From a virus, in the IMG/VR virus record IMGVR_UViG_3300042517_000993, positions 1-44,183 of that record: a stretch of DNA of 44,183 nucleotides; one strand, written 5' to 3'. Positions 1,238-42,240 of this stretch are shown here, piece by piece (position 1 is the stretch's first letter; each line of letters opens with the position of its first letter). The position numbers were made by a program, and so were the translations under genes. The notes below the pieces were generated by a model. The model was not told the origin of the DNA, made no database searches, and worked only from the letters and a program-made list of their open reading frames with translations.

Positions 1238-1266
1238 GGCAGACTAGGGGACTGAGTACCATCAGT
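1238..1266 (+). promoter_or_regulatory. GGNANNCTAR box and inverted repeat before the 1270 gene
   Basis: The box GGCAGACTAG (1238-1247) is followed by ACTG (1251-1254) pairing with CAGT (1263-1266), which ends three bases before the ATG. The 4-bp stem is weak on its own. Confidence 0.45.
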
Positions 1267-1269
1267 ATA

Positions 1270-1662
1270 ATGACCGTTTTAAATTTAGATTACGGATGGG
1301 AGGAGGATGATGATATCAAGGTATTAATTGCTGGTGGAATAACTGTGGGTGAGTATCAGATTGATACGGTGCGTGTTACAATGAATAATTTGGGTGCGAT
1401 ATCGGGCGGTATTGTTTCTAGTATCAAGGCATTACTGAGTGAATATCAGGATGCACAGGACCGAATGGTGGAGTTGAATACCAGTGCTGATGGGAAGGTA
1501 TTAATTAAGGCTGATGTATTGGAGTGGAGTGAAGCGAAGGGAGTGCAATACAGTCCGGAGAGGGAGGTAATGCGTATTCGGGGGTTAATTTATCAATATA
1601 TGGCTAGTTGCCCGCTATTTGGCGGTGGCGTGAGCAATTTAACGATGTTATATCGTTCGTAG
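1270..1662 (+). CDS. hypothetical protein
   Basis: This 130-residue acidic protein starts MTVLNLDYGWEEDDDIKVLI. I prefer ATG 1270 to the in-frame TTG at 1231 because the box-hairpin leader sits just before it and the extra residues look non-coding. I see no recognisable domain. The middle (IVSSIKALLSEYQDAQDRMVEL) is probably helical, and the C-terminal part contains a hydrophobic CPLFGGGVSNLTML stretch. It ends one base before the next start (1664), so the two are probably co-translated. The AT-rich codon use resembles the leftward operon. Confidence 0.6.
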   Translation: MTVLNLDYGWEEDDDIKVLIAGGITVGEYQIDTVRVTMNNLGAISGGIVSSIKALLSEYQDAQDRMVELNTSADGKVLIKADVLEWSEAKGVQYSPEREVMRIRGLIYQYMASCPLFGGGVSNLTMLYRS

Positions 1663-1663
1663 G

Positions 1664-1918
1664 ATGCCTGGGTGGCTTTGGCGAGGGATTATTGGTGTAA
1701 CGATTGCGACGGGCGTTATTGCGACGGGGCAATGGGCGGCTTGTCGATTTTATGTGTTACCGACTGTATGGCCGTGGTATGCGAAGTACAGCGGGACGGA
1801 AGTGAATGATAAGATCGATTTGGGACCAATGGGATGTAATGACATTGATTCCAGGACCATCAGTGTAATGATGGGGTTATTAACGACGTTAATATCGTTA
1901 TCACGGAAGGCAGATTGA
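1664..1918 (+). CDS. small membrane protein, possibly two-pass
   Basis: This 84-residue protein has two hydrophobic stretches, about residues 8-26 (GIIGVTIATGVIATGQWAA) and 65-80 (ISVMMGLLTTLISLSR), joined by an aromatic-rich loop. The short charged tail after the second segment resembles holin-like proteins, but a clearer lysis region lies near 42 kb, so I do not call it a holin. It starts one base after the stop of the preceding gene. Its 3' end overlaps by 18 bases with the convergent leftward gene ending at 1901. Confidence 0.55.
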   Translation: MPGWLWRGIIGVTIATGVIATGQWAACRFYVLPTVWPWYAKYSGTEVNDKIDLGPMGCNDIDSRTISVMMGLLTTLISLSRKAD

Positions 1919-2155
1919 TTCCAGGTAGCTGAGGCGTTTATTGATTTCCATCAAGGCATGATCCCAGGAGCAAGTGGATTCTGATGCTGACTGGTGGATA
2001 TCAAGCCAATGTTTGGCGTAAGGGTCGTGGCTGGGTAGTAATTCTAATGCTTGGCGGATAGTTTGTATATCTTGATAGAATTCACGAGTGTCATTGACAC
2101 CTGTTGCGATAGCGTGCAGTGCAACGAGTGCTTGTTGCTTCAGATTGGGGTCCAT
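1901..2155 (-). CDS. small protein with LKxxAL...IRxALExLP module
   Basis: This 84-residue protein is the most downstream gene of the leftward operon. Its first half (LKQQALVALHAIATG...IRQALELLP) is the module that ends the 2549 and 3600 genes, here without the PPPEL N-terminal part. The second half is unrelated to them. Such short proteins are typical of cyanophage early or middle regions and have no known function. It overlaps the 3' end of the convergent membrane-protein gene. Confidence 0.6.
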   Translation of the reverse strand: MDPNLKQQALVALHAIATGVNDTREFYQDIQTIRQALELLPSHDPYAKHWLDIHQSASESTCSWDHALMEINKRLSYLESICLP

Positions 2156-2161
2156 AATAGG

Positions 2162-2425
2162 TTAAATGATTTCAAGGTTACCTTGATGATCAAGGCTGAC
2201 GAAGATATGAGCAATATTTGAGCAGGTTACCAGTTGCATGGCTTGTTTATATTCGGTTGTTTCTAGCTCGGGGTATTTGGGCTTGTATTCCATTGATTCG
2301 GGTTCCAGGTAGTTGCAATCTTTATCACCAAGGTGAAAAGTATTTAATGCTTGGCGTGCTTCTTTGAGTTGAGAGTGATCAAGTGCGAATGAGATGGGAA
2401 CTTTGAAGGTTGCGATAATTGTCAT
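2162..2425 (-). CDS. hypothetical protein of the leftward operon
   Basis: This 87-residue protein (MTIIATFKVPISFALDHSQL...) carries the motif LKEARQALNTFHLGD, loosely like the helical module of its neighbours. It is otherwise unrecognised. It lies between the tRNA-like element upstream and the 1901 gene downstream, 6 bases away. Its start is preceded by the operon's conserved spacer ending CTAATCACCC rather than by a purine-rich ribosome-binding site. Confidence 0.6.
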   Translation of the reverse strand: MTIIATFKVPISFALDHSQLKEARQALNTFHLGDKDCNYLEPESMEYKPKYPELETTEYKQAMQLVTCSNIAHIFVSLDHQGNLEII

Positions 2426-2444
2426 GGGTGATTAGCGAAGGTGA
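2426..2444 (-). promoter_or_regulatory. conserved start-codon spacer of the leftward operon, site 1
   Basis: Read leftward, the 19 bases before the ATG end in CGCTAATCACCC. They align with the 19-base spacers at 2882-2900 and 3969-3987. No Shine-Dalgarno sequence is present. Confidence 0.55.
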
Positions 2445-2455
2445 CTACTGTGCCA

Positions 2456-2527
2456 AGGGTCGTGCCGGAATCGAACCGACTTTCTAGGTGCGTTGTCCGC
2501 CTGTCCTTACCAATGGACTACCGACCC
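2456..2527 (-). tRNA. tRNA-like sequence with defective anticodon arm
   Basis: On the minus strand, 72 bases fold like a tRNA. The acceptor GGGTCGG pairs with ACGACCC with one G-A mismatch. The D arm is GTCC-ATTGGTAA-GGAC, and the T arm GTCGG-TTCGATT-CCGGC is sound. The anticodon arm is poor: AGGCG/CACCT has a C-A mismatch, base 26 is missing, and the loop GACAACG lacks U33. By position the anticodon would be CAA, but a leucine tRNA should have a long variable arm. CCA is not encoded. It is probably a decayed tRNA or a tRNA mimic, and the isotype cannot be assigned. Confidence 0.55.
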
Positions 2528-2548
2528 ATGACAATTTAGTGGAAGCGA

Positions 2549-2881
2549 CTACTTGTTGTCGGGAAGTTGTTCAAGGGCGCGGCGGATGGTGTCTATGCCC
2601 TTGTCGCTAAGGAAAGGCTGGTTTGCTGGATCATGATTAATCAACGCCAACGCCTGCTCCTTCAAGCTCGGCGCCTTGGGGCGTCGTGCGGCGCAGAGTT
2701 GCCGAGATTCACCAGACCAACCTTCTAGATCTAGCCACTCACAGCACGCCTCCAGCTCAGCGTCTGCTCCTGCTCTGTAAATATCTTCAAACATTGCATA
2801 GAGTGATCTCCCTTCTTCAAACTGTTCTGACCACCTCTGGATTAGCTCCGGTGGTGGAGTGATGGGGTGTTGTTGTATCAT
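2549..2881 (-). CDS. paralogous PPPEL-family protein (two modules)
   Basis: This 110-residue protein has an N-terminal HPITPPPELIQRWSEQ module, a middle AGADAELEACCEWL segment and a C-terminal LKEQALALINHD...IRRALEQLP module. The same order recurs in the 3600 gene (HPVIPPSELVEQW, ADQELEACRMEI, LKEKALLALSHL...IRLALEQLP), so the two are duplicates. Such proteins are common and functionally unassigned in cyanophages. The start is preceded by the 19-base conserved spacer rather than a Shine-Dalgarno sequence. Confidence 0.7.
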   Translation of the reverse strand: MIQQHPITPPPELIQRWSEQFEEGRSLYAMFEDIYRAGADAELEACCEWLDLEGWSGESRQLCAARRPKAPSLKEQALALINHDPANQPFLSDKGIDTIRRALEQLPDNK

Positions 2882-2900
2882 GGGTGATTAGTGATAATGG
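2882..2900 (-). promoter_or_regulatory. conserved start-codon spacer, site 2
   Basis: Exactly 19 bases lie between the TAA of the upstream gene and the next ATG. Read leftward the spacer ends CACTAATCACCC and is near-identical in length and sequence to that at 3969-3987. Confidence 0.6.
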
Positions 2901-3173
2901 TTACTGGGTTTCAAGCTCATCGGCGATGGCAAGGAGTTCTTGTCTCACATCATTTGTTTTTGAAAACAGTGCCCAAGCATAACCAAAGTCAATGGTTGGA
3001 CCAATAGATTCTTCTGTAGGCTCTGGTTGCCACGGAACCACCTGATTCGCAACAGCTCGCAAAGCGGAAGCCAGGGCGTCTGTGTTGTGATAATTGTGCT
3101 TCCAGTCATGTAAAGAGTTGTCCTCAGTAAAAGCATCCAGCACTGCTTGTGCAGCGGGTGAAAGTTCAGACAT
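2901..3173 (-). CDS. small 'SPAAQAVLDAF' family protein
   Basis: This 90-residue acidic helical protein begins MSELSPAAQAVLDAFTED. This opening, followed by an ASALRAVANQV segment and a C-terminal RQELLAIADELE, is one I recall from many cyanophage proteins of unknown role. The final base of the preceding gene's stop overlaps this start at 3173, so translation is probably coupled. Function is unknown. Confidence 0.65.
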   Translation of the reverse strand: MSELSPAAQAVLDAFTEDNSLHDWKHNYHNTDALASALRAVANQVVPWQPEPTEESIGPTIDFGYAWALFSKTNDVRQELLAIADELETQ

Positions 3174-3406
3174 TAGCCGTCCAGCTCTTTTACGAGTGTC
3201 TTAAGGGCTTTGTATTGCCCCCATGTCAGACCAAAGCGTTGTTCGCCGTTACTATTAAGGATAACATCGAAACCTTCACCGTTATGCCACATTGACATTT
3301 CCATGAAGTCATCTCCGTTAATGGTTACGTCATAGTCCGCCAGGGAGACAAAGGCTGATTCGAGCTTGTAGCGCTCGATTTTCTTGGTTGATTTCTTGTC
3401 AGACAT
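3173..3406 (-). CDS. hypothetical protein of the leftward operon
   Basis: This 77-residue protein has a basic N-terminus (SDKKSTKKIERYKL) followed by a likely alpha/beta fold (ADYDVTINGDDFMEMSMWHNGEGFDVIL...). The C-terminal TWGQYKALKTLVKEL is helical. I recognise no family. Its stop shares a base with the start of the 2901 gene. A 14-base spacer ending CTAATCCC precedes its ATG, a shorter version of the operon's start spacer. Confidence 0.6.
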   Translation of the reverse strand: MSDKKSTKKIERYKLESAFVSLADYDVTINGDDFMEMSMWHNGEGFDVILNSNGEQRFGLTWGQYKALKTLVKELDG

Positions 3407-4509: not shown

Positions 4510-4533
4510 GGGACCCTAGGGTTATATATATAA
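4510..4533 (+). promoter_or_regulatory. GGNANNCTAR box and AT palindrome before the 4550 gene
   Basis: The box GGGACCCTAG (4510-4519) is followed by the perfect 12-base palindrome TTATATATATAA (4522-4533). The ATG lies at 4550 with an AAGGTGGGG purine run between. The AT palindrome could also serve as a -10 region for either strand. Confidence 0.5.
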
Positions 4534-4752: not shown

Positions 4753-4762
4753 GGAAAACTAA
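4753..4762 (+). promoter_or_regulatory. GGNANNCTAR box before the 4784 gene
   Basis: GGAAAACTAA lies 31 bases before the ATG. Only a weak inverted repeat (CTA/TAG) follows, making this one of the poorer structural cases. Confidence 0.45.
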
Positions 4763-5783: not shown

Positions 5784-5814
5784 GGCATACTAGTCCGCTT
5801 AATGGACCAGTATG
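5784..5814 (+). promoter_or_regulatory. box and hairpin that encloses the start codon at 5812
   Basis: The box GGCATACTAG (5784-5793) is itself part of a stem. CATACTAGTCC (5786-5796) pairs with GGACCAGTATG (5804-5814), 11 positions with one mismatch and a 7-base loop. The right arm contains the ATG, so in RNA the box would mask the start codon. Confidence 0.65.
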
Positions 5815-7556: not shown

Positions 7557-7566
7557 GGAAATCTAT
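7557..7566 (+). promoter_or_regulatory. GGNANNCTAR-like box before the 7580 gene
   Basis: GGAAATCTAT lies 23 bases before the TTG start, the shortest distance in the set. The last base is T rather than a purine. Confidence 0.4.
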
Positions 7567-8017: not shown

Positions 8018-8117
8018 TTCAAGGTAATTCGTAGTATACCGTTTGGAACTCTAGGTTAACGGGGTTCGATTCGCCCCGGAATTGTCCCTTCGTCCCGGAT
8101 GATCTCCGGCTGGACCC
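8018..8117 (+). promoter_or_regulatory. structured leader of the tail tube gene
   Basis: Three hairpins follow one another: GGTA (8023-8026) with TACC (8037-8040); CGGGG with CCCCG around TTCGATTCG near 8060-8078; and CCGGA with TCCGG near 8096-8110. The first resembles the GGTA...TACC hairpin in the capsid gene leader. No clear Shine-Dalgarno motif lies before either candidate start. Confidence 0.5.
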
Positions 8118-8729: not shown

Positions 8730-8746
8730 GCTTTGCCTGGTGATCC

Positions 8747-8770
8747 GGCCCCCAACTGGGGGCCTTTTTT
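8747..8770 (+). terminator. rho-independent terminator after the tail tube gene
   Basis: GGCCCCC (8747-8753) pairs with GGGGGCC (8758-8764) around AACT and is followed by six T. It should isolate the abundant tube transcript from the tape measure gene. Confidence 0.9.
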
Positions 8771-8792: not shown

Positions 8793-8802
8793 GGCACTCT
8801 AA
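8793..8802 (+). promoter_or_regulatory. GGNANNCTAR box before the tape measure gene
   Basis: GGCACTCTAA lies 37 bases before ATG 8830, just after the terminator. A short TCTA/TAGA inverted repeat begins within the box. Confidence 0.5.
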
Positions 8803-18333: not shown

Positions 18334-18363
18334 GGAACACTAGCGCATTGTTGACTTAAGTCA
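18334..18363 (+). promoter_or_regulatory. box and palindrome before the 18373 gene
   Basis: The box GGAACACTAG (18334-18343) is followed by the perfect 12-base palindrome TGACTTAAGTCA (18352-18363). The ATG is 9 bases further on. Confidence 0.55.
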
Positions 18364-21724: not shown

Positions 21725-21847
21725 ATGGATACCAATATCTACGAAAAGGCCAAGATCGTTCAGATGATAGCCAGGATTCAGGCCAAGAAGAAAGCCTCCC
21801 AATTGGCGATGCTTCGCAAGTTAAAGGATAAGCCAAAGAAGCGATAG
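21725..21847 (+). CDS. 40-residue basic helical peptide
   Basis: A very short frame, MDTNIYEKAKIVQMIARIQ... ending KLKDKPKKR, begins 3 bases after the preceding stop and ends exactly where the next GGNANNCTAR box begins. It is strongly basic (about a third Lys and Arg) and predicted fully helical. It may be a small head protein or scaffold partner. Support comes from tight packing and composition only. Confidence 0.5.
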   Translation: MDTNIYEKAKIVQMIARIQAKKKASQLAMLRKLKDKPKKR

Positions 21848-21878
21848 GCATACTAACGCGCAATTTAGGCGTGATGCC
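21847..21878 (+). promoter_or_regulatory. box and nested hairpin before the scaffold gene
   Basis: The box GGCATACTAA (21847-21856) starts on the last base of the preceding stop. GGCAT (21847-21851) pairs with ATGCC (21874-21878), and inside it ACGC (21856-21859) pairs with GCGT (21869-21872). As at 5784, the box itself forms the outer arm. Confidence 0.6.
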
Positions 21879-21886
21879 TGCTCCCA

Positions 21887-22672: not shown

Positions 22673-22713
22673 ATTGCGATTCTCAATAACTTAATATTAT
22701 TGAGAATCGCAAT
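22673..22713. repeat. perfect 17-bp inverted repeat upstream of the capsid gene
   Basis: ATTGCGATTCTCAATAA (22673-22689) is perfectly complementary to 22697-22713, with a 7-base AT-rich loop and no T-run after it. It sits between the scaffold terminator and the capsid leader. Possible roles are an RNase III processing site at the new 5' end, a dimeric regulator's operator, or an insulator. It is the longest perfect inverted repeat I found. Confidence 0.9.
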
Positions 22714-22716
22714 ATT

Positions 22717-22849
22717 GGTATTCTAAGGTGAAGTACCCAGCCCTGAACTGGTTGTGATGACCTATCGGGGAGGGTCTAGCGCAATCGGAACGTGATGTTC
22801 TAAAGGCGATTTACCTTTCCTCAAATAGTTATCATCAACTAGGAGAAAC
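22717..22849 (+). promoter_or_regulatory. long structured leader of the capsid gene
   Basis: The box GGTATTCTAA (22717-22726) begins a hairpin in which GGTATTC pairs with GAAGTACC with one bulge. Further short inverted repeats follow (GAAC/GTTC near 22787-22800). The leader is about 133 bases, against 23-49 for most other boxes, and ends with a real Shine-Dalgarno sequence, TAGGAGA, 5 bases before ATG. Confidence 0.6.
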
Positions 22850-23752
22850 ATGGCTCTTACTCTTGCAGAGGCTAAAAAGCACGCCTCTAACCCCCAAGAA
22901 CTGGCGATCGTAACCGAACTCGCCGCCGGTCCTCTGCTTCAGAATCTGCCTTTCCGCGAAGTGCAAGGCAACGGTCTGTTCTGGAAGCGTGAGGAGTCCC
23001 TCGGCGACGTGGGCTTCCGTGCCTTCAACGATGGCTATGCCGAAAGCTATGCCACCGTCAAGCAGCAAAGCGAAGCGCTGAAGTTGTTCGGTGGTGACAT
23101 CAAGGTTGACCGTGCCATCGTCGACCTGGAAGGCCCCGAAGCTCGCGCTTACCAGATCCAAGCCAAGACCCGCGCAATGCGTCTGGCTTTCGAGGCTCTG
23201 TTCATCAATGGCGACTCCAACAGCACTGGCGCTGAGTTCGACGGTCTGGCAACCCGCCTGCCCGCTGGCGACTACGCTACCAACTCCCAGGTGATCCGCA
23301 ACGCTTCCAGCGCTGCTGCTCTGGATCTGGGCAAACTGGACGAAGTGATTGACGCCGTGGACGCCCAGGGTGGCACCAAGTACATCGTGTGCTCGAAGTC
23401 CGCTCGCCGCGCTCTGACCAAGGCCGCTCGTAACAGCAGCCAGATCGACATCATGCGTGATGAATTCGGCTATCAGCAGACCGTGTATGGTGGCCTGCCC
23501 GTGCTGGAAATTGACCGCGACCACCAGAACGTGGCAATCCTGGACAGCAACCCTGCTGATCAGTCCCTGTATGTCGTGTCCTTCGGCAACGATCTGCTGA
23601 CCGGCCTGCAGAACGGTGGCCCTCAGGTGCGTGATCTGGGTGAAGCAACCGACGCCCCCGTCCTGGTGACCCGCGTTGAGTGGTATTGCGGCCTGGCTCT
23701 GATCAACGGCCGTGCTGCTGCTCGTCTGACCAACGTGAATGCAACCGCCTGA
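22850..23752 (+). CDS. major capsid protein (HK97 fold family)
   Basis: The 300-residue coat protein belongs to a family I recognise by LAEAKKHASNPQELAIVTEL...LLQNLPFREVQGNGLFWKRE near the N-terminus, FGGDIKVDRAIVDLE near 80-95, and KTRAMRLAFEALFINGD followed by FDGLATRLPAG. It is short for an HK97-type coat and shows no delta-domain protease site, in keeping with a separate scaffold gene. Codons are strongly GC-biased and host-like. A Shine-Dalgarno sequence, a private leader and terminators on both sides indicate very high, independent expression. Confidence 0.92.
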   Translation: MALTLAEAKKHASNPQELAIVTELAAGPLLQNLPFREVQGNGLFWKREESLGDVGFRAFNDGYAESYATVKQQSEALKLFGGDIKVDRAIVDLEGPEARAYQIQAKTRAMRLAFEALFINGDSNSTGAEFDGLATRLPAGDYATNSQVIRNASSAAALDLGKLDEVIDAVDAQGGTKYIVCSKSARRALTKAARNSSQIDIMRDEFGYQQTVYGGLPVLEIDRDHQNVAILDSNPADQSLYVVSFGNDLLTGLQNGGPQVRDLGEATDAPVLVTRVEWYCGLALINGRAAARLTNVNATA

Positions 23753-23773: not shown

Positions 23774-23800
23774 AAGGGGTCCTAAAAAGGGCCCCTTTTT
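23774..23800 (+). terminator. rho-independent terminator after the capsid gene
   Basis: AAGGGGTCC (23774-23782) pairs with GGGCCCCTT (23789-23797), nine pairs with one G-T, and is followed by T residues. Confidence 0.9.
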
Positions 23801-23805: not shown

Positions 23806-23834
23806 GGAAAACTAGTCAGACTAAGGATTGTCTG
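23806..23834 (+). promoter_or_regulatory. box and hairpin ending at the start codon of the 23834 gene
   Basis: The box GGAAAACTAG (23806-23815) is followed by CAGAC (23817-23821) pairing with GTCTG (23830-23834). The 8-base loop holds the only Shine-Dalgarno-like AAGGA, and the last paired base is the first base of the GTG start. Confidence 0.65.
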
Positions 23835-25033
23835 TGATTTTTTCGTCGTCCGATATTGAACGCTTAATCGGCGACGATCCGATTATCAAGGCAATTTGCG
23901 ATATCGAAATAGTCGACGCAAAGCCTGCCCTGAAGGCCGGTAGTGGTGTTGTTATTTATATTAAACGATATCCTGAGCTGTCCGAATTTGAAGCAAGGTG
24001 GGATATCTGGATTATTGACTATGACAACGAACCAGTTGATGTTGTTATCCGTCAACTGAGAAAATTACTGCCTCGATTTACACTTATTGAAGAAGGCGTA
24101 ATCATAAAAGCCAGCACAACAGAACTTAGATCTGAGCGAACCGAAACTGAGATAAAGATCGAGCCAGTTGCAGTTACAGAAGATCCTTATGAAGAGAAGT
24201 TCCAGGATCTCCTTCAATCCATAGAAGACAGGATGCTGCTCGTTGGTCCTGGCAGATCAGGACGTGACGGCAGAGATGGTAAAGATGGCATTAATGGTAA
24301 AGATGGCATAGACGGCAAAGATTTAGAAGTTACTGAAGTTGAACTTGGCGATCTCAACGATGTCTTTATTTCTGACGCAAATCGTGGCCAGTTCCTCATG
24401 TTTGATGGAGCTGGTTGGATTCCACGCTTTGTTCCTCAGGTATTCTCAGGTGGCGGTGGAGGTTCCAGTGAAGGCGGTGGAGGAGACGGCACAATGCCGG
24501 AACCACCAGATGATGGCAGATTCTATCTTCGACAAGTCAACAATGGCGCAGGCCAGTGGGTTGATTTACTGACTGCACTGAATGCATTGTATCTTGATGG
24601 TGGTGATTTTGACGGAAGAAGAGTTAAGACTTCTACTGGTAATTACGTTGTTACTGGATATAGTTCATCTCGTTATATCATCAAGACGCTTCCTGCGGAT
24701 AGAGGAACGTTTATTGCATCGGGCGAAAATGGTTCGTTCTTGTTTGATCGGATACTTAAAGCCGATAGCGTTGACTTAATCGTTGCCGGTTCACCTGCAA
24801 CAATATCAGCTTCTCGTATTGTAACGGCTGATGCAGCCAGCTTTACTGTAACAGGTCAATCAGGAGATGATATTATTGGTTATCGTATTCTTGGAGCAGT
24901 TGGCAATATTGACCTGACTGGCTCAGATGGTCAGATTCGTTACAACGAACCCGATGTTCAGTTTTATGGAGATTGGGCTGCTCAAAACTATGGTTACCTA
25001 AGTGAAGTCTACCCTGACGGATGGGCTGGGTAG
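23834..25033 (+). CDS. tail fibre with collagen-like segment
   Basis: This fibre has about 399 residues. I chose GTG 23834, since the AAGGA at 23823 suits it better than the TTG at 23828. Residues about 1-135 form a mixed alpha/beta head. Residues about 138-163 are nine Gly-X-Y triplets rich in Asp, Arg and Lys (GRDGRDGKDGINGKDG), a collagen-like triple-helix segment. Then come an NDVFISDANRGQFLMFDGAGW fibre motif, a Gly-rich linker (GGGGGSSEGGGGDG) and a beta-rich C-terminus. The architecture is a trimeric fibre. It opens the fibre block right after the capsid gene. Confidence 0.75.
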   Translation: MIFSSSDIERLIGDDPIIKAICDIEIVDAKPALKAGSGVVIYIKRYPELSEFEARWDIWIIDYDNEPVDVVIRQLRKLLPRFTLIEEGVIIKASTTELRSERTETEIKIEPVAVTEDPYEEKFQDLLQSIEDRMLLVGPGRSGRDGRDGKDGINGKDGIDGKDLEVTEVELGDLNDVFISDANRGQFLMFDGAGWIPRFVPQVFSGGGGGSSEGGGGDGTMPEPPDDGRFYLRQVNNGAGQWVDLLTALNALYLDGGDFDGRRVKTSTGNYVVTGYSSSRYIIKTLPADRGTFIASGENGSFLFDRILKADSVDLIVAGSPATISASRIVTADAASFTVTGQSGDDIIGYRILGAVGNIDLTGSDGQIRYNEPDVQFYGDWAAQNYGYLSEVYPDGWAG

Positions 25034-25057
25034 GTAACCTAGTTGGAATAACTGAGG
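25033..25057 (+). promoter_or_regulatory. box and hairpin before the 25061 gene
   Basis: The box GGTAACCTAG (25033-25042) overlaps a stem in which CCTAGTT (25038-25044) pairs with AACT-g-AGG (25050-25057) with one bulged G. The same box sequence recurs at 40998. Confidence 0.6.
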
Positions 25058-26566: not shown

Positions 26567-26587
26567 GGAATTCTAGTTCAGTACTGA
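26567..26587 (+). promoter_or_regulatory. box and palindrome before the 26609 gene
   Basis: The box GGAATTCTAG (26567-26576) is followed by the perfect palindrome TCAGTACTGA (26578-26587). ATG is 42 bases from the box start. Confidence 0.5.
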
Positions 26588-26608: not shown

Positions 26609-29242
26609 ATGCCGATCCCTAGCCCTCGTGTAAGGTTTCAGGTCGCACGAGGCGTTTACGCTAACTTATTAGCAGGGCTCGGGGAGTTTGAGGATGGCGA
26701 GCTTTGCTATGCCAGGGACCAAGACAGCTTATATATCAAGGAAGAGAATGAGTTAATTAAATTAAGCTCGGGCCTTGATAGCGAACTGGCAAATTACATC
26801 AGGGAGATCACAGGAGTAAATTACACCAACGAGCCCATGGGGCACGTTGACAAAAATGAAAGTGTAATCTCTTTCGATGCCGATAATCGTATATTTTCTA
26901 TTGCTCCTGTTGCTGCCAGCTTTACTGTATGGTGCGCTGGTTTTAAGGTAGTTTTCGTAGGGACTGAATCAGTTACACTTCCCGACGAGACTGGTTTATA
27001 TTATATTTTCTTTGATGAGAATGGTGACCTTGGATACCAAGATGGTTACTTTAACTGGGAACTGCAGGCGCCTACCGCTTATGTTTATTGGAATGCAGAA
27101 ACAGCTCAGGCTGCATATTTTGGCGATGAGAGGCATGGTATCACTCTAGATTGGCAGACGCATGAATATCTTCACAGAACAAGAGGTGCCGTTTTTGCTG
27201 ATGGCTTTGATATTGGTGGCTATACACTTTCTGGCGACGGTAGTCTTGATGCTGACGCGCAGTTCAGTCTGGATAATGGAAGCTTTTTCGATGAAGACTT
27301 ACAGGTTGATATAAGTCACTCAGAAACTCCTGCTCTTAATACCTGGCAGCAGCATATTACGAGCCCCTGCAGAGCGCCTGTACTTTACCGTTCTGGCGCT
27401 GGATATATACTTGATTCTCCGACTGATTTTCCGGTAAAGGCAGGTGTTTCGTATCCGTTGTACAATTCTGCAACTGGAGGTGCCTGGTCTACGGTCGAGG
27501 CTAGTGCAAACAAATATATTGTAGCATTTGTAATTGCTACAAACAATCTAAACTATCCCGTCATTAGCGTGATGGGACAATCTGTTTACAATAATATTGC
27601 GGACGCCAAGGCTGTATCATTTGCTTCTTTAAATTTAGAGAATTTTCCATCTCTAGAGTTTAGGACTCTTTATCGGTTAATACTCCAGACTGGCAATTAT
27701 GGTAACTCTATCGGCGCCAGATTAAGAGAAGTTCAAGATTTGAAATATGCGACGATTGGCTCCATCAGCCCTGTTGAACTTAGTTCCGAACAAATTCAAG
27801 ACTATGCCTCTCAGTTGTTTATAAATGGAATACATTCGGGCTTAAGTTTTTCTTATGACGATGATAACGATAGAATTAACGCCACAGCAGATGTCAGGTC
27901 TGTCAATAACCAGATTGGCGATGTTTCCCTGGATATGCTGGACGCTTCTGATGCGGCTTTAAGTTTCAGTGATATATCGCAAGGCTCCTGGACCGCTACT
28001 GGGACCAGCGATCTTCCTGCTATTGCTCAATTCTCTCAATCTGGCAATACTTTAACTTTTCATTCAAATCCGATTGATATTGCTGGTCAGTTGACTCAGG
28101 GTGACATCATATTACTAAATGCCGTTATAGCAACAGTAGAGAGTACTTCGTCTGTTCCCGCAGAGGACTACTGGACTTTAACGGCAAGCGGAGTAACTCT
28201 GCCCATCTATTCGGCAGGTGAGACCTTGCAGTTATTTATAAGAACAGACAACCTAATTGCTGATAAAGATGTTTGGACCTACAACTTGTCTAGACAGAAA
28301 TGGGAGCCAAAATCCGCGCTTCAGGCAGAAGACGTACCAGCACTAGTCACTCCTTTGTTTGCTCATGGTTATCATACCGGAATTACATTTGAGTACGACG
28401 AAGCGAATGCGCATATTGACGCGACTGTTTTAGCGCAAAACATAGAAAGTATCGACGATATTGGAGACGTTGACACTTCGACCACTACACCTTCTGACGG
28501 ACAAGTGCTTACATGGAATGCGATTACCTTAAGGTGGGAGCCGACTACGGTCAATATTGGCGTTACTAGCGTCGACATAATTGGTGGCACTGGACTAACA
28601 GCTTCTGGAGGTCCTATTACGAGCAATGGCTCTATTGCGATTGACTTAGACAATACTACTGTTAGCCCTGGTTCATACACGAATGCAGATATTACTGTTG
28701 ATGCTCAGGGACGTATTACGGCTGCATCGAGTGGCACTCAAGCGAGTACTGCTCTTGATGATCTAACTGATGTAGATACATCTACTATTCCGCCTGTTAA
28801 TGGACAAGCTCTTATTTGGAACCAGACTTCCTCCCAATGGGAGCCAGGAAATGTAGAGACTTCTGGCTCGATTAGCAGAAGTTCCGCTTCAGCAATTCTC
28901 GCTATTGCCGCTGGCGCAACAACCATATCTTCAATTTCACTCTCGAAAAGTTGCATAATATACAAAATTACAGTAGATAAGGCTTGTTGGCTGCGGCTTT
29001 ACAATTCTTTGGCTTCAGCCAATAGTGATAGCACAAGATTGCGCACAGAAGACCCCGAAGCGTCAGGTGGTGTAATATGTGAGATCATAGCAACAGGAGC
29101 TGATTCTTACGTACTAACGCCAACGCCAACAGCAATGAACGCAGAGTCGCCCGTATCATCGTATTATCAACTTAGAGTTACAAATGATGATTCAGTTTCA
29201 GATGTTCAAGTTACGATCGAATACTTAACCCTGGAATCCTAA
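26609..29242 (+). CDS. long tail fibre protein
   Basis: The N-terminus of this 877-residue protein (RVRFQVARGVYANLLAGLGEFEDGELCYARDQDSLYIKE) is the fibre attachment module found at the start of many phage tail fibres. The middle is beta-rich. Two imperfect copies of a unit of about 30 residues, IDDIGDVDTSTTTPSDGQVL and LDDLTDVDTSTIPPVNGQAL followed by W...WEP, lie near 625 and 715. The C-terminal 110 residues form another beta domain ending VQVTIEYL. It is probably a trimeric receptor-binding fibre. AT-rich codons contrast with the GC-rich fibre at 32547. Confidence 0.75.
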   Translation: MPIPSPRVRFQVARGVYANLLAGLGEFEDGELCYARDQDSLYIKEENELIKLSSGLDSELANYIREITGVNYTNEPMGHVDKNESVISFDADNRIFSIAPVAASFTVWCAGFKVVFVGTESVTLPDETGLYYIFFDENGDLGYQDGYFNWELQAPTAYVYWNAETAQAAYFGDERHGITLDWQTHEYLHRTRGAVFADGFDIGGYTLSGDGSLDADAQFSLDNGSFFDEDLQVDISHSETPALNTWQQHITSPCRAPVLYRSGAGYILDSPTDFPVKAGVSYPLYNSATGGAWSTVEASANKYIVAFVIATNNLNYPVISVMGQSVYNNIADAKAVSFASLNLENFPSLEFRTLYRLILQTGNYGNSIGARLREVQDLKYATIGSISPVELSSEQIQDYASQLFINGIHSGLSFSYDDDNDRINATADVRSVNNQIGDVSLDMLDASDAALSFSDISQGSWTATGTSDLPAIAQFSQSGNTLTFHSNPIDIAGQLTQGDIILLNAVIATVESTSSVPAEDYWTLTASGVTLPIYSAGETLQLFIRTDNLIADKDVWTYNLSRQKWEPKSALQAEDVPALVTPLFAHGYHTGITFEYDEANAHIDATVLAQNIESIDDIGDVDTSTTTPSDGQVLTWNAITLRWEPTTVNIGVTSVDIIGGTGLTASGGPITSNGSIAIDLDNTTVSPGSYTNADITVDAQGRITAASSGTQASTALDDLTDVDTSTIPPVNGQALIWNQTSSQWEPGNVETSGSISRSSASAILAIAAGATTISSISLSKSCIIYKITVDKACWLRLYNSLASANSDSTRLRTEDPEASGGVICEIIATGADSYVLTPTPTAMNAESPVSSYYQLRVTNDDSVSDVQVTIEYLTLES

Positions 29243-29868: not shown

Positions 29869-29878
29869 GGAAAACTAA
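29869..29878 (+). promoter_or_regulatory. GGNANNCTAR box before the 29904 gene
   Basis: GGAAAACTAA lies 35 bases before ATG. GGAA can pair with TTCC at 29885-29888 only weakly. Confidence 0.45.
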
Positions 29879-29903: not shown

Positions 29904-31484
29904 ATGGCCAATACCATCCGCATTAAACGCCGCGCTAGCGGCAATGCCGGCGCTCCTGCGAGCCTGAAAAACGCAGAATTAGCATATAATGAAGTAGATG
30001 ATGTACTTTATTATGGTCGTGGTGCGGATGGTAGTGGCGATGCATTAACGATCCCCGCCATTGGCGGCTTTGGTGCGTTCGTTGGTCTCGCCGGTAATCA
30101 AACAATCACCGGCACTAAAACTTTTACGGGCAGTCTAGCTCTAACTGCCGCAACGATTGATGGTTTTAGTACCACTGGCAACATTACAGTTGGTGGTAAT
30201 TTAATCGTCCAAGGCACCACTACTACAGTTTCTTCGACGACAATTGAAGTCGCCGATAAGAATCTCGAACTCGGCAAAGTAGATACTCCGACCGATTCTA
30301 CTGCCGATGGTGGTGGTATCACACTGAAAGGTACTTCGGACAAGACCTTCCAGTGGTATGATACTACAGACGCCTGGACTAGTTCGGAGCATATTGATCT
30401 TGACTCTGGCAAGTCTTACTACATTGACGGCAATTTAGTTTTAAGCGCCACTGGTTTGGGTTCTGGTGTTACCGACTCCAGTCTCACTAGCGTTGGCACT
30501 TTAACCGGTGGCACCTGGCAAGCAAATACTATTGGTACCGGCTATGGCGGTACTGGTTACGCTGGTGGCTATGCCAATGGCGAACTTCTGATTGGTAACA
30601 GCAGTGGCGGTCTGACCAAGTCAACCTTGTCTGGTGGCACTGGCATCCAAATCACTAACACCAGTGGCGGAATCGAGATCTCGTCTACCGGTGTTCAGTT
30701 TAGCGCTGGTGACGGCCTTGATCTTACTGATGCAATTCTGACTGTTACTCCAAAAGCAAATAGCGGTATTGTTATTGATTCTGGCGAAGTTTCGCTCGAT
30801 CTTGGCGCTAGCGCTATCACTGGCACTCTCGCCATTGGCGACGGTGGTACTGGTGCTACGAGTGCAGCAGATGCACGCACAAATCTTGGTCTTGTAATTG
30901 GTTCTGACGTTCAAGCGTATGACGCAAACATCGTTAGCGATGCCAGCTACGTCCATACCGACAACAACTTTACTACCACTCTCAAGAACAAGCTTGATGG
31001 TATTGAGGCTGGCGCCGAAGTCAATGTCCAGGCTGACTGGACCGAGTCCGACTCGAATAATGACGCCTACATTCTGAATAAGCCTACGCTTGGCACTGCT
31101 GCGGCTACGGATGCTACTGACTACGCAACCGCTGCTCAGGGTAGCCTGGCCGACAGTGCTCTGCAACCTGGCGATATTGGCGTCAGCGTTCAGGCTTACG
31201 ATGCCGAACTGGCAACACTGTCTGGCATGACTTCGGCCGCAGCAACTTCACTTGCTGCCCTGACTTCTGCCGAGATTGCCATACTGGATGGTGCAACTGT
31301 CACGACGGCAGAGCTTAACATTCTTGATGGCAACGCTTCCGCGACTGCAACAACCCTTACCGCAGCAGATAAGTTTATCGTAAACGATGGCGGAACGATG
31401 GTTCAGGTCGCTCTTAGTGACCTTGTGACCTTCTTCGAGAATGGTAGTGTTTCTGGATTCGATCTCGACGGCGGCGAGTTCTAG
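29904..31484 (+). CDS. tail fibre protein
   Basis: This 526-residue fibre begins MANTIRIKRRASGNAGAPASLKNAELAYNEVDDVLYYGRG, the common fibre N-terminal attachment module. A beta-repeat shaft follows (NQTITGTKTFTGSLALTAAT; GGTGYAGGYANGELLIG). Near residues 340-435 it contains YVHTDNNFTTTLKNKLDGIE...ILNKPTLGTAAATDATDYATAAQGSLADSALQ, a module repeated three times in the 32547 fibre. The two fibres therefore share exchangeable parts. The next gene begins with nearly the same attachment module. Confidence 0.75.
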   Translation: MANTIRIKRRASGNAGAPASLKNAELAYNEVDDVLYYGRGADGSGDALTIPAIGGFGAFVGLAGNQTITGTKTFTGSLALTAATIDGFSTTGNITVGGNLIVQGTTTTVSSTTIEVADKNLELGKVDTPTDSTADGGGITLKGTSDKTFQWYDTTDAWTSSEHIDLDSGKSYYIDGNLVLSATGLGSGVTDSSLTSVGTLTGGTWQANTIGTGYGGTGYAGGYANGELLIGNSSGGLTKSTLSGGTGIQITNTSGGIEISSTGVQFSAGDGLDLTDAILTVTPKANSGIVIDSGEVSLDLGASAITGTLAIGDGGTGATSAADARTNLGLVIGSDVQAYDANIVSDASYVHTDNNFTTTLKNKLDGIEAGAEVNVQADWTESDSNNDAYILNKPTLGTAAATDATDYATAAQGSLADSALQPGDIGVSVQAYDAELATLSGMTSAAATSLAALTSAEIAILDGATVTTAELNILDGNASATATTLTAADKFIVNDGGTMVQVALSDLVTFFENGSVSGFDLDGGEF

Positions 31485-31489: not shown

Positions 31490-31526
31490 GGAAAACTAGT
31501 GGGCCCCGTACATACGGGGCCTTTCC
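31490..31526 (+). terminator. box plus strong hairpin after the 29904 fibre gene
   Basis: GGCCCCGT (31502-31509) pairs perfectly with ACGGGGCC (31514-31521). The box GGAAAACTAG (31490-31499) flanks it so that GGAAA (31490-31494) pairs with TTTCC (31522-31526). It may act as a terminator, although the T-run is interrupted, or as the leader of the 31553 gene. Confidence 0.65.
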
Positions 31527-31552
31527 TTGCTATATAGCAAACAAGGAGCCAA

Positions 31553-31984
31553 ATGGCGAACACAATTAAGATAAAACGGAGTGGGGTACCCGGAAAAATA
31601 CCATCCACATCCGACCTCCAGCTTGGCGAGTTAGGAGTTAACTTTTTTGACGGCAAATTGTTCTTAAAAAAGAACAATGGAGCCGAAAGTATTGTCCAAG
31701 TTGGAGCTAGCCAAGGCGATCTGGCAGCAGATTCCAGTGTCGCCGATGTCTTAAGTGTCGCCGGAGGCGTTCTTAGTAGCACTGATCCAGGTGTTACTAA
31801 GATTGTTTACTGGGATGATACATCAGGAAAGCTGTCGTATCTTTCTATCGGTTCTGGCCTTTCGATTGGCAGTGGTTCGCTAAGTTCTACAGGCGGAAGC
31901 GGTGGTACTGGCGCGTTTGCTGATTTTGGCCTCATTACCGAAAATATATTATCATCTGAATATGATCTAGGAGGTGTCGTGTAA
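31553..31984 (+). CDS. short fibre protein with attachment module
   Basis: This 143-residue protein begins MANTIKIKRSGVPGKIPSTSDLQLGELGVNFFDGKLFLKK, the same kind of attachment module as the 29904 gene but more diverged. The rest is a Ser/Gly-rich beta region ending in GTGAFADFGLITENILSSEYDLGG. It lacks a long shaft, so it could be the base on which the following proteins (31984, 32547) assemble. Its stop overlaps the next start (TAATG). Confidence 0.65.
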   Translation: MANTIKIKRSGVPGKIPSTSDLQLGELGVNFFDGKLFLKKNNGAESIVQVGASQGDLAADSSVADVLSVAGGVLSSTDPGVTKIVYWDDTSGKLSYLSIGSGLSIGSGSLSSTGGSGGTGAFADFGLITENILSSEYDLGGVV

Positions 31985-40011: not shown

Positions 40012-40110
40012 AAGATACTACATAGTGTCCCGCCAGTTTTGCAATAGGAATCTTATTATTGACTGGATCTAATCTCTACGAGATCAGTCTATTCAAAACA
40101 GGAGACTAAC
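40012..40110 (+). promoter_or_regulatory. leader of the decoration-protein gene
   Basis: The stretch contains a TTGACT (near 40055) usable as a -35, a short ACTACATAGT palindrome near 40020, a GATCT...AGATC inverted repeat near 40065-40085, and a strong Shine-Dalgarno sequence, CAGGAGA, before ATG 40111. No perfect GGNANNCTAR box is present. A GGAAAAGATACTA string at 40009-40021 is the nearest. Confidence 0.4.
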
Positions 40111-40461
40111 ATGGCTCAACGTTCTGCTGGAGTGTTCCCCCGCGAGAAGTTTGATCTCGATGCTGCTTTCGAGGTTACCGCTACTTCCGCCGCTGCTCCT
40201 ATCCCCCTGACCAGTATTGGCACCATCCGTGTGGTTGTGCTCGATGCAGGCGGCATCGACGATGCTGGTACTAATAAGATCACTGTTAACGTGGGTGGCA
40301 AGTCCGTGGTGTTTGCTGCTGCTGACCTGGACAAGAACGGCGTGGGTATTGCCCATATCCGTGGCTCCCTGTGTGACGCCAACAACAACATGGATTACGA
40401 CCTGGGTGGTACCGCCACCGTGGGTGCTGTGTACCTGGACGTTGTGGACAACGTGGGCTGA
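40111..40461 (+). CDS. probable capsid decoration protein
   Basis: This 116-residue beta-rich protein has no charged coiled coil (IGTIRVVVLDAGGIDDAGTNKITVNVGGKSVVFAAADL...). It has the GC-rich, host-like codons of the capsid and tube genes, its own strong ribosome-binding site and a terminator immediately after, all marks of an abundant virion protein expressed alone. Size and fold suggest a head decoration protein, but distance from the capsid gene leaves other abundant roles possible. I recognise no family motif. Confidence 0.6.
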   Translation: MAQRSAGVFPREKFDLDAAFEVTATSAAAPIPLTSIGTIRVVVLDAGGIDDAGTNKITVNVGGKSVVFAAADLDKNGVGIAHIRGSLCDANNNMDYDLGGTATVGAVYLDVVDNVG

Positions 40462-40479
40462 GCCTAAGCCAACCACATC

Positions 40480-40489
40480 GGCAAACTAT
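40480..40489 (+). promoter_or_regulatory. GGNANNCTAR-like box directly before a terminator
   Basis: GGCAAACTAT abuts the terminator hairpin, and ATG 40514 is 34 bases from the box start. The geometry matches the other box-hairpin leaders, but here the hairpin is a clear terminator. Confidence 0.5.
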
Positions 40490-40510
40490 GGGGCGGTAAC
40501 GCCCCTTTTT
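40490..40510 (+). terminator. rho-independent terminator after the decoration gene
   Basis: GGGGCG (40490-40495) pairs with CGCCCC (40500-40505) around GTAA, a GNRA-type tetraloop, followed by five T. Confidence 0.92.
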
Positions 40511-40513
40511 ATT

Positions 40514-40816
40514 ATGTACCTTCGTAATCGTCCAGCATATTACACAAACGGCGAGCAGACCATTGCCGTAAACTACAGTGCTCACGCAAGAGACCTTGAG
40601 CAGACTGGCTGGACGCTTGTTGAGAAGGTCGAAGTAAAAGTGGAACCCAAGATTGAGTCTGCTCCAGAGCCTGTGTCTGAAGCTGTTACCAGCGATACTG
40701 ATCTCCCTTCTTTGACCAAAAGTGAACTGCTTGCTTACGCAGAAGCCATGGGTCTAGAGGCGAAGTCTACTTTTACTAAATCTGAAATCATCAGCTTGAT
40801 CGAAGCAAATGATTGA
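40514..40816 (+). CDS. small protein with C-terminal SAP/HeH-like helix pair
   Basis: This 100-residue protein starts MYLRNRPAYYTNGEQTIAVNYSAHARDLEQTGWTLV, has an acidic linker (EVKVEPKIESAPEPVSEAV) and ends with LTKSELLAYAEAMGLEAKSTFTKSEIISLIEAND. That ending is a helix-extended-helix of the SAP/HeH/Rho-N type often used for DNA or protein contact in small phage proteins. Start at the ATG right after the terminator. Its 3' end overlaps the next gene by 8 bases. Position in the virion or cell is unknown. Confidence 0.65.
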   Translation: MYLRNRPAYYTNGEQTIAVNYSAHARDLEQTGWTLVEKVEVKVEPKIESAPEPVSEAVTSDTDLPSLTKSELLAYAEAMGLEAKSTFTKSEIISLIEAND

Positions 40817-40994
40817 ATTTGAGCACGTCAAGGGGCCACGGATCCTTGAAGATGGCACGAATATTGATGCCGATATCATTGCTTATGAGCCGGTAATTCA
40901 GCGTCGAAATATTACAGATCCCGTCTCTGATGGATCTCTGGGCACCCCTGGCTATCAACCAGGACAAAAGAACAGAGACGGCTCGCCGCTGTAA
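40809..40994 (+). CDS. short hypothetical protein
   Basis: This 61-residue protein (MIEFEHVKGPRILEDGTNIDADIIAYEPVIQRRN...LGTPGYQPGQKNRDGSPL) has a beta-like first half and a disordered, Gly/Pro-rich end. It overlaps the preceding gene by 8 bases and is followed by a box-hairpin leader. No family is recognised. The overlap and normal composition support expression. Confidence 0.5.
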   Translation: MIEFEHVKGPRILEDGTNIDADIIAYEPVIQRRNITDPVSDGSLGTPGYQPGQKNRDGSPL

Positions 40995-40997
40995 GCA

Positions 40998-41026
40998 GGT
41001 AACCTAGTTGGTAACGGGATTTACCA
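40998..41026 (+). promoter_or_regulatory. box and hairpin ending on the start codon at 41026
   Basis: The box GGTAACCTAG (40998-41007) is followed by TGGTAA (41009-41014) pairing with TTACCA (41021-41026), six perfect pairs with a 6-base loop. The last paired base is the A of ATG. Confidence 0.65.
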
Positions 41027-41112
41027 TGGCAATGCCATTAGCTATTGCAAAGCAATTTGGCAAGAAAGGTAAGCCTAAGAAAGGTAAGGGCAATGGCACC
41101 AAAAAAGCGTAG
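41026..41112 (+). CDS. 28-residue basic peptide overlapping the next gene
   Basis: The frame reads MAMPLAIAKQFGKKGKPKKG and ends KGNGTKKA, with about a third lysine. It starts right at the end of a box-hairpin leader, and its last 20 bases contain the ATG of the 41093 gene in another frame. It may be a real tiny DNA-binding peptide, or a leader that delivers ribosomes to the overlapped start. Confidence 0.45.
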   Translation: MAMPLAIAKQFGKKGKPKKGKGNGTKKA

Positions 41113-41386
41113 CACCGCAGATTTTTACGCCAAAAATCCTGAGGCGTATAAGAAGAAGCTTGCTTATGACAAGAAGCGCAATGCCCGACCCGACCGTAAG
41201 GATTATAGAGCTGAATTAGCACGGGAACGTCGTGCCAGGGGTATTATGGGCAAAGGTGGCCCTGATGTCAGCCATACCAGCGATGGCAAGTTTAAACTGG
41301 AAAACCCGAAAACTAACCGGGCTCGCAATGGTCATGGCAAGAACGCACGCTTAGCACCTGGCAAAGGTACAAAGAAATCAAAGTAG
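41093..41386 (+). CDS. very basic DNA-binding-like protein
   Basis: This 97-residue protein begins MAPKKRSTADFYAKNPEAYKKK, continues KRNARPDRKDYRAELARERRARG and ends KNRARNGHGKNARLAPGKG. Nearly a third of residues are Lys or Arg and only a handful are acidic. I recall very similar proteins in many cyanophages and some large DNA viruses, where a packaged nucleic-acid-binding role has been suggested but not, to my knowledge, proven. The ATG lies inside the preceding 28-codon frame, so translation is probably by reinitiation. Confidence 0.7.
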   Translation: MAPKKRSTADFYAKNPEAYKKKLAYDKKRNARPDRKDYRAELARERRARGIMGKGGPDVSHTSDGKFKLENPKTNRARNGHGKNARLAPGKGTKKSK

Positions 41387-41397
41387 TGAATTGTTTG

Positions 41398-41446
41398 AGT
41401 AAACTAGATAAGTATTAGGGCACTCTATAGCAGATGCTCAATAGAG
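41398..41446 (+). promoter_or_regulatory. box and nested hairpin ending just before ATG 41447
   Basis: The box AGTAAACTAG (41398-41407; first base A) is followed by CTCTAT (41423-41428) pairing with ATAGAG (41441-41446). Inside it AGC (41429-41431) pairs with GCT around AGAT. The stem ends on the base before the ATG. Confidence 0.6.
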
Positions 41447-41635
41447 ATGACTGGTATCGTAGCTTATCTGGTTGCCCACGGCCCTGAAATCCTTGCTGCA
41501 TTGATTGCAGTTCATGCTGCAGCAGTTGCTATTGTCAACCTAACTCCCACCCCTAAGGATGACGCTGCAGTTGCTAAACTTTATCGTGTAATCGAAATCC
41601 TGGCAGGCATTGTCACCAAACTGTCAAAGGGCTGA
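41447..41635 (+). CDS. small membrane protein, holin candidate
   Basis: This 62-residue protein has one or two hydrophobic helices (AYLVAHGPEILAALIAVHAAAVAIVNL, about 6-33), a proline hinge (TPTPKDD) and an amphipathic C-terminal helix (AKLYRVIEILAGIVTKLSKG). Size, membrane helix and position shortly before the endolysin fit a holin. Similar proteins of cyanophages are usually left unassigned. It competes with the 41934 gene for that role. Confidence 0.55.
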   Translation: MTGIVAYLVAHGPEILAALIAVHAAAVAIVNLTPTPKDDAAVAKLYRVIEILAGIVTKLSKG

Positions 41636-41647
41636 GTCGATCGGATA

Positions 41648-41686
41648 CCCGTTGGCTTCTTCGTTTCTCTACTAGAAGCCAGCGGG
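41648..41686 (+). other. 13-bp hairpin upstream of the 41701 start
   Basis: CCCGTTGGCTTCT (41648-41660) pairs with AGAAGCCAGCGGG (41674-41686), thirteen pairs with one G-T and a 13-base loop. It has no T-run. It is a leader structure without a recognisable GGNANNCTAR box. Confidence 0.65.
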
Positions 41687-41700
41687 AAGAAGTTGAACGG

Positions 41701-41913
41701 TTGATCTCAAAAGTTAGATTCTATCAAACATTAAATAGTAAGGTAACTCTTGAAATTAATCGCGTAAAAGAAGAAATGGCCGAGATGGAACAAGCCTCTC
41801 AGCCGACAACAGTTAATCATCCGATCGACGACAATTTACAGACTGGTGACTCTAGACTACTTGGCGGTGGGATGAGTATTCATGCCCCTTGGTCAAAGGA
41901 ATCGGAAGAATGA
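41701..41913 (+). CDS. small coiled-coil protein, start uncertain
   Basis: This 70-residue protein from TTG 41701 (ISKVRFYQTLNSKVTLEINRVKEEMAEMEQ, then a polar tail) has GGAAGAAG upstream. The frame is open further back, to a CTG at 41632 that overlaps the preceding stop, adding SRSDTRWLLRFSTRSQREEVER, which also reads like protein. The same bases form a 13-bp hairpin, so either the hairpin or the extension is the functional element, or both. The polar tail resembles small virion or lysis-associated proteins. Function unknown. Confidence 0.5.
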   Translation: MISKVRFYQTLNSKVTLEINRVKEEMAEMEQASQPTTVNHPIDDNLQTGDSRLLGGGMSIHAPWSKESEE

Positions 41914-41933
41914 CAATAGGGTTAATTTTTTAG

Positions 41934-42206
41934 ATGGCACCTCAGGAACCTACCCCATACGGGGGTGACATCTATCATATTTTAGGTAACCTTGAAGGAA
42001 AAATGGACGCCCTGATTGCGCGCACTGCAGAGTACCGCGCAGACTTGCAGACTGCATTTGAAAGAATATCTAAACTGGAGAATAAGCAAGCTTGGATCAT
42101 GGGTGCTGCCGTTGTTGTCAGTCTGGTGATGCCGACGATTGTCGGAATTGCATCTCGTAACTTTGATATCAAAATAGACCCGATCATAGAGAATCAAGCG
42201 AAATAA
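41934..42206 (+). CDS. membrane-anchored coiled-coil protein of the lysis region
   Basis: This 90-residue protein has an amphipathic coiled coil (about 15-52: YHILGNLEGKMDALIARTAEYRADLQTAFERISKLENK). A single transmembrane helix follows (about 53-73: AWIMGAAVVVSLVMPTIVGIA), then a short tail. A soluble coiled coil before one membrane segment, right upstream of the endolysin, suits a holin-like or haemolysin-XhlA-like partner that anchors or times the endolysin. Confidence 0.6.
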   Translation: MAPQEPTPYGGDIYHILGNLEGKMDALIARTAEYRADLQTAFERISKLENKQAWIMGAAVVVSLVMPTIVGIASRNFDIKIDPIIENQAK

Positions 42207-42211
42207 ATTCA

Positions 42212-42238
42212 GGTAGACTACATCGCATTAAATGCGAT
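42212..42238 (+). promoter_or_regulatory. box and perfect palindrome before the endolysin start
   Basis: The box GGTAGACTAC (42212-42221) is followed by ATCGCATT (42222-42229), one base, then AATGCGAT (42231-42238): 8 perfect pairs with a single central base. The ATG (42241) is two bases later. A one-base loop is sterically poor in RNA, so this copy could equally be a DNA operator. Confidence 0.65.
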
Positions 42239-42240
42239 TC

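Follow-up and report, generated by a model that had tools for sequence, protein, structure and literature searches.

Candidate late promoters and a probable head-gene RNA operator in a virus related to Synechococcus and Prochlorococcus phages

We wanted to understand which signal recurs in front of the rightward genes of the virus record IMGVR_UViG_3300042517_000993 (IMG/VR). The whole stretch of 44,183 bases, called the window here, carries tail, head and lysis genes on the + strand, and in its capsid protein it shares 70-71% identity with Synechococcus phages S-CBS2 and S-CRES3 and 51% with Prochlorococcus phage PSS2. A sequence-only reading had noticed a 10-base box, GGNANNCTAR or a one-base variant, at 18 positions in its gaps, in most cases followed by an inverted repeat, and had proposed a phage promoter, a start-codon-masking RNA switch, a processing site or a nut-like antitermination signal. 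Searches of an open-access library found no description of this box or of these leaders. Taken as a whole, comparison with related phages makes it likely that the box serves as the extended -10 element of late promoters used by a SigF-like phage sigma factor, and that hairpins in the head-gene transcripts form an operator. Independent sequence tests of several kinds carry the promoter step; the choice of sigma and the operator are steps that we infer. The window is a fragment, and the genes to the right of its edge were read in a sibling contig of 79,110 bases (locus L001, record G001; G001 position + 1776 = window position). Since the two are 99.995% identical across 20.9 kb, the sibling contig was treated as the same phage.

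The box was counted on both strands of the window. Exact matches to GGNANNCTAR number 19, against 8.7 (standard deviation 3.0) in shuffled sequence, and none of 100 shuffles reached 19. Eighteen of them lie on the + strand and one on the - strand, while the pattern read backward, as a control, gives 6 and 6. A comparison of gaps with coding DNA had been proposed as a check: 15 of the 18 forward matches fall within the 2,997 bases of gaps of a hand-made gene model, and the other three (13858, 29233 and 30129) in coding DNA. The strand split, the excess over shuffles and the position in gaps indicate that the repeated box is real and clustered in gaps. A search tolerating one mismatch gives no more matches than chance (180 against 191 expected), and box variants therefore require other support. 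Fourteen of the 18 positions first given are exact, those at 7557, 40480, 41398 and 42212 being one-base variants, and the list had missed 8045, in a gap, and 29233. The box placed at 41398 is probably wrong, as it scores below 7.5 bits against 9.9 bits for 41419, 28 nucleotides (nt) before the start codon. The match at 4510 is exact, yet also scores below 7.5 bits.

The same bias was found in related phages. The 80 capsid-gene loci, a partly redundant set with the sibling contig among them, contain 343 boxes in forward and 31 in reverse orientation, against 136 and 92 for the backward control; whole records give 23 and 1 in S-CBS2, 25 and 2 in S-CRES3, and 18 and 3 in PSS2. A de novo expectation-maximization motif search that made no use of the box pattern was run on the 80 nt upstream of 66 (S-CBS2), 57 (S-CRES3) and 66 (PSS2) starts. 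It returned AtnGGcATCCTA, GGnAtACTAg and aGGAAgnCTaa, respectively, with log-likelihoods of 103-115 against 33-47 in five shuffles per phage, and with a distance to the start codon peaking at about 28-34 nt. The start lists used here and in the comparison of late with other starts were chosen by us, most genes abutting the preceding gene being omitted. Many capsid leaders carry GGNANNATA in place of the exact box, and the core is therefore written GG-N-A-N-N-(C/A)-T.

In S-CBS2, S-CRES3 and PSS2, an exact box lies 10-80 nt upstream of 42 of 90 late starts and of 8 of 112 other starts, the two classes being assigned by position (Fisher p 7e-11); the eight include two RNR genes, one terS, two portal genes and one head-morphogenesis gene. 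Of 401 boxes, 50 have a terminator-like site that ends in the 60 nt before them, where 7.9 are expected, and 7 have one that begins in the 60 nt after them, where 8.6 are expected. In 36 of 63 distinct capsid upstreams, such a site stands 110-260 nt before the gene. Among the 209 gap sites of 337 distinct boxes, no -35 element is visible, the 60 nt upstream being nearly information-free. Counted from the box start, pyrimidines make up 66-71% at positions 10-12, and 86% of these sites have A or G at position 13, a YYYR step that would be expected near a transcription start site. Of the options first listed, the phage promoter is thus supported by the late-gene bias, the terminators before the box, the YYYR step, the lack of a -35 element and the two phage sigma genes described below. 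A single-subunit RNA polymerase (PF00940) was matched in none of 11 records, but control genomes gave no match either. A second GG-led site, GGAATAAT at window 8774 (GGGAAGAAT in capsid upstreams of marine relatives), lies between the terminator and the main box and is perhaps a tandem promoter.

Sigma region 2 is matched in 16 of 20 large records, sibling contig included, with two matches per record; the four others are fragments of 35-46 kb. S-CBS2, S-CRES3 and PSS2 each encode one RpoD-like and one SigF-like protein, and the sibling contig encodes such a pair just right of the window edge. Thirteen second sigma proteins align with the SigF-like proteins of the three phages. Regions 2 and 3 are conserved, including CSGPPLEL, which we take to be the region 3.2 finger, and the last ~45 residues are unconserved. 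The NCBIfam SigF model covers residues 16-169 of 209 in the SigF-like protein and the FliA model extends to 185. An AlphaFold model built on 13 of 16 alignment rows (mean predicted local distance difference test 76, predicted template modelling score 0.42) shows the fold of domain 2 (Z 12.3-13.5 across 75-77 residues) and three C-terminal helices, and with this model Foldseek returned sigma factors throughout the best 50 rows. Some Protein Data Bank chains align up to its very end, so region 4 is called degenerate rather than shown to be absent; Pfam region 4 is unmatched in the SigF-like and the RpoD-like proteins alike and hence uninformative on its loss in the former. A single scan of genome contigs for cyanobacterial host relatives of the phage sigma confirmed 0 of 138 pattern matches. 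For P-SS2, a group 2 and a group 3 sigma were described, and the authors guessed that the group 3 sigma serves a particular regulon (PMC2784084).

We propose that, after the early genes, the SigF-like sigma would direct the host core polymerase to the GG-led boxes, with the GG contacted by sigma region 3 and the A..(C/A)T by region 2. Late units would then initiate anew, often directly after the preceding terminator, and an RNA start about 13 nt past the box start would leave short leaders, mostly without Shine-Dalgarno sites. The closest likeness is the J-box of SigJ in Nostoc punctiforme, GGGaAtacT. It is an extended -10 element with a weak -35, and the study that describes it points to a likeness with the -10 region of SigF (PMC6495340). 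It shares with the phage box the extended -10 layout and a weak or missing -35. GG, A and T stand in the same register in both, and this GG-n-A-nnn-T register is seen in the profiles of 209 and of 231 phage sites. The phage box differs in lacking a third G on its left, in carrying A-R beyond the T and in serving late genes of a phage.

Other readers of the box have to be weighed against this. Both sigma genes occur together in every record that has any, so that co-occurrence cannot separate the RpoD-like from the SigF-like protein, and host SigF/SigJ proteins recognise similar GG-led sites (PMC6495340). The box could thus be a promoter read by the RpoD-like sigma of the phage, or by a group 3 sigma of the host. 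We consider this unlikely, as GG-led -10 sites are of the SigF/SigJ style while RpoD-type sigmas recognise TATAAT (PMC2758279), and the missing -35 suits a sigma with an unconserved C-terminus. More remote still is an RNA element acting in the transcript, as a nut-like antitermination, processing or ribosome-binding signal. The fairly fixed distance from box to start codon would fit such an element, and so would the scarcity of Shine-Dalgarno sites, which had rightly been called mostly missing (similar 4-mers in 6 of 19 window leaders and 10 of 115 elsewhere). However, leaders are in general unstructured, the motif is in the J-box register, and the boxes follow terminators instead of preceding them. 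With terminators upstream and no downstream excess within 60 nt, antitermination, one of the options first raised, was disfavoured.

Several observations weigh against a late promoter read by the SigF-like sigma. About half of the late starts have no exact box, which is retained in just 22 of 79 capsid leaders and 2 of 16 leaders of the gene at 29904. In a looser set of 231 sites, the purine at +13 falls to 78% and the preceding pyrimidines to 51-60%, where they nearly vanish. The phage protein scores best with the NCBIfam SigF model, yet at 84.7 bits against a curated cut-off of 261, and it is motif likeness alone that chooses between the two phage sigmas. Among 19 records compared, G012 (9 forward, 8 reverse) and G013 (5 and 8) are near-unbiased for box strand while holding both sigma matches, the second below the Pfam cut-off. 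In favour of the promoter reading, forward bias is missing from phages that have a related capsid gene and lack a sigma match (Mwe-JY26 6 and 6, Cp1R7A-A1 1 and 3, Unity 1 and 1). S-CRES1 has two sigma matches and counts of 21 forward and 3 reverse boxes, and Cr-LKS4, with a diverged sigma, has 13 and 13; the comparison of sigma presence with strand bias covers these five records only.

Then, the structure of the leaders was considered. All five inverted repeats named by the sequence-only reading (5793, 23817, 41009, 41423 and 42222) are present in the window. Seven of 20 window leaders (1238, 8045, 23806, 31490, 40480, 40998 and 42212) have a perfect stem of at least 5 base pairs (bp) close to the box, against 2.0 in shuffles, none of 200 being as high, and the mean folding z is -0.75. 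In contrast, 115 leaders of the fetched loci, sibling contig included, have 7 such stems against 8.8 expected, and a mean folding z of +0.14 against -0.57 in coding controls. Given no stem excess in these leaders, the box does not in general come with structure. A hairpin after most boxes therefore holds as an excess in the window and fails in the relatives, for which a generic box-plus-hairpin RNA element was rejected. That the association is real and specific to this phage, as the window's excess would suggest, is improbable: the 115 leaders speak against it, the hairpin at 40480 is terminator-like, and variant sites had been selected partly for their hairpins. Likewise, a start-codon-masking switch is not found behind every box across relatives; what remains of it are conserved hairpins in the leaders or start regions of portal, scaffold and capsid genes. 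Pairing of the box with its own leader (GGCAT/ATGCC, scaffold) was tried and dropped, as L002 and L021 keep GGCAT and the partner reads GACGCC. Some homologs of the tail-gene leader at 31490-31553 (e.g. L036 and L055) keep two hairpins in the same place with changed stems, as seen without scoring, and this leader may be a second structured type.

The hairpins of the head genes mostly have G-N-G-A-Y loops. Such a hairpin, with a stem of at least 4, lies within 120 nt after 37 of 41 scaffold and capsid boxes and after 4 of 255 others. For the capsid gene, 49 of 63 distinct leaders were aligned (51 picked, L005 and L020 dropped as near copies) and show a helix, P1, and two hairpins. Pairing holds in 94.3% of cells, against 34-50% with the partners slid, and double-sided changes occur in 95 cells against 29 in shuffles; this gain stems from the two hairpins, P1 being nearly invariant. 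A covariance model of the capsid leader recovered that of S-CRES1, which had been held out, at 66.5 bits (E 7e-16), whereas the stretches searched in Mwe-JY26, Cp1R7A-A1, Unity and Cr-LKS4 gave no match. It also matches window 22724-22851, the sibling leader having been in its training set. In most of the 49 leaders, a central GGG strand has possible partners on both sides; since these strands hardly vary, a covariation test of such switch pairing is impossible. The 3' part of the leader (window ~22811-22835) has a conserved (A)UUCACCUUUCCU that resembles the 16S rRNA 3' end; in several relatives, the AGGA of the gene itself would be a possible pairing partner for it. Upstream, a perfect 16-bp inverted repeat with a 7-nt loop (window 22674-22712) ends 4 nt before the capsid box; it is present in the sibling contig and missing from L002.

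The scaffold region, with 41 of 53 leaders aligned (near copies and the oddly spaced L026, L045 and L033 dropped), has one hairpin before the start codon and one in the first codons, and both were recovered unaided by RNAalifold. Pairing reaches 91.8% of cells against 33-47% when slid, with 106 double changes against 37. With stems of at least 3, hairpin 1 is present in 52 of 53 distinct leaders and hairpin 2 in 37 of 53. Covariation is thus documented for the scaffold and capsid hairpins. The 15 portal leaders, with L129 and L130 as identical copies, were scored with stems down to 2: at least two G-N-G-A-Y loops occur in 11, the window's sibling has a single one, and PSS2, L136 and L137 lack them. 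Some portal hairpins abut the start codon. When stems of at least 4 are required, S-CRES3 alone among the three named phages has a close hairpin pair. The portal reading frame of L137 (record G012) contains one TGA. Rfam 15 gave 0 matches at gathering score in the window. The scaffold-capsid stretch, and the capsid leader of one of two relatives, gave only chance-like matches far below threshold; the head-gene hairpins match no family of the Rfam 15 library searched.

Phage translational operators, as in capsid or scaffold autoregulation, are hairpins near start codons of capsid-assembly genes, and those found here are placed likewise. Unlike in these systems, three head genes share one loop type, usually paired, and the binding protein is hypothetical. 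We infer that the hairpins are probably an operator for the head genes. The start of the portal, scaffold and capsid mRNAs would fold into G-N-G-A-Y hairpins, and one RNA-binding protein on them would balance head-protein output; this could be the scaffold protein, the capsid protein or some small protein of the phage. In the capsid leader, the GGGU strand of P1 could alternatively pair with a downstream ACC(C), giving a two-state switch. We give about even chances to the full scheme, a post-transcriptional regulon of portal, scaffold and major capsid genes with their own late promoters, usually paired G-N-G-A-Y hairpins, one RNA-binding protein setting their ratio and P1 as a two-state switch. 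A competing explanation, somewhat less probable, takes the hairpins for boxB-like antitermination, RNase or mRNA-stability sites and not for a translational operator. Five-base loops on short stems do recall boxB, and S-CRES3 has a gene annotated as RNase III. Nevertheless, the hairpins are too selective for a general antiterminator, being concentrated at scaffold and capsid boxes with the portal added, and the scaffold hairpin within codons and those portal hairpins that abut start codons also argue against these roles.

Table 1. Box sites and head-gene RNA structures in the window (nt before start counted from box start; homologs, homologous leaders with the exact box)
Feature	Position	Strand	Start codon	Bits	Homologs	Remark
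Box (putative late promoter -10)	1238..1247	+	32 nt before ATG 1270	12.6		exact
Weak box	4510..4519	+	~40 nt before ATG 4550	<7.5		exact
Box	4753..4762	+	31 nt before ATG 4784	15.6		
Box	5784..5793	+	28 nt before ATG 5812	16.5		
Box variant	7557..7566	+	23 nt before TTG 7580	11.1		last base T
Box overlooked earlier	8045..8054	+	uncertain	12.8		exact, in gap
Box	8793..8802	+	37 nt before tape-measure ATG 8830			terminator 8746-8765 upstream
Box	18334..18343	+	39 nt before ATG 18373	15.3	2/4	
Box, scaffold gene	21847..21856	+	ATG 21887	17.3	30/50	
RNA hairpin 1, scaffold leader	21866..21880	+				loop GUGAU
RNA hairpin 2, within first scaffold codons	21908..21924	+				loop GAGAC
Box, major capsid gene	22717..22726	+	ATG 22850	12.7	22/79	
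Structured capsid leader RNA	22724..22849	+				helix P1, 22735-22738 paired with 22772-22775
Capsid leader hairpin P2	22750..22762	+				loop GUGAU
Capsid leader hairpin P3	22787..22801	+				loop GUGAU
Box	23806..23815	+	22 nt before TTG 23828	14.8	18/21	terminator 23775-23796 upstream
Box	25033..25042	+	28 nt before ATG 25061	11.6		
Box	26567..26576	+	42 nt before ATG 26609	13.2	34/39	
Box overlooked earlier	29233..29242	+	57 nt before GTG 29290	8.4	14/21	last base ends upstream gene
Box	29869..29878	+	35 nt before ATG 29904	12.9	2/16	
Box	31490..31499	+	63 nt before ATG 31553	15.8	16/28	two hairpins after
Box variant	40480..40489	+	34 nt before ATG 40514	13.2		last base T; hairpin 40490-40505 and T-run, terminator-like
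Box	40998..41007	+	28 nt before ATG 41026	10.2		
Box variant	41419..41428	+	28 nt before ATG 41447	9.9		favoured over 41398
Box variant, endolysin gene (PHROGs)	42212..42221	+	20 nt before ATG 42232 or 29 nt before in-frame ATG 42241	10.1		last base C

Elsewhere in the window, a tRNA-Leu gene (anticodon CAA, 2456-2527, - strand) lies amid small reverse-strand genes. A 24-base repeat, GACCAGCGGGCCGTTCGCGATCAC, is found near the left end at 3-26, 513-536 and 841-864, the third copy with one change.

Phage-encoded sigma relatives are described in other phages. In T4, the late promoters read by gp55 likewise consist of a -10-type element only and are served by a phage-encoded sigma relative, but they differ in their 8-bp TATA box and in the use of gp33 and the gp45 clamp (PMC2988020). 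Phages 7-11 and phiEco32 also encode a sigma, and a motif of about extended -10 length was found from genome sequence; the sigma and the motif are others and an anti-sigma factor is part of the scheme (PMC4331800). The box described here provides a candidate regulon together with its recognition site, which is testable in vitro, and with the head-gene hairpins there is a concrete RNA target for studying how portal, scaffold and coat protein are kept in balance in a tailed phage.

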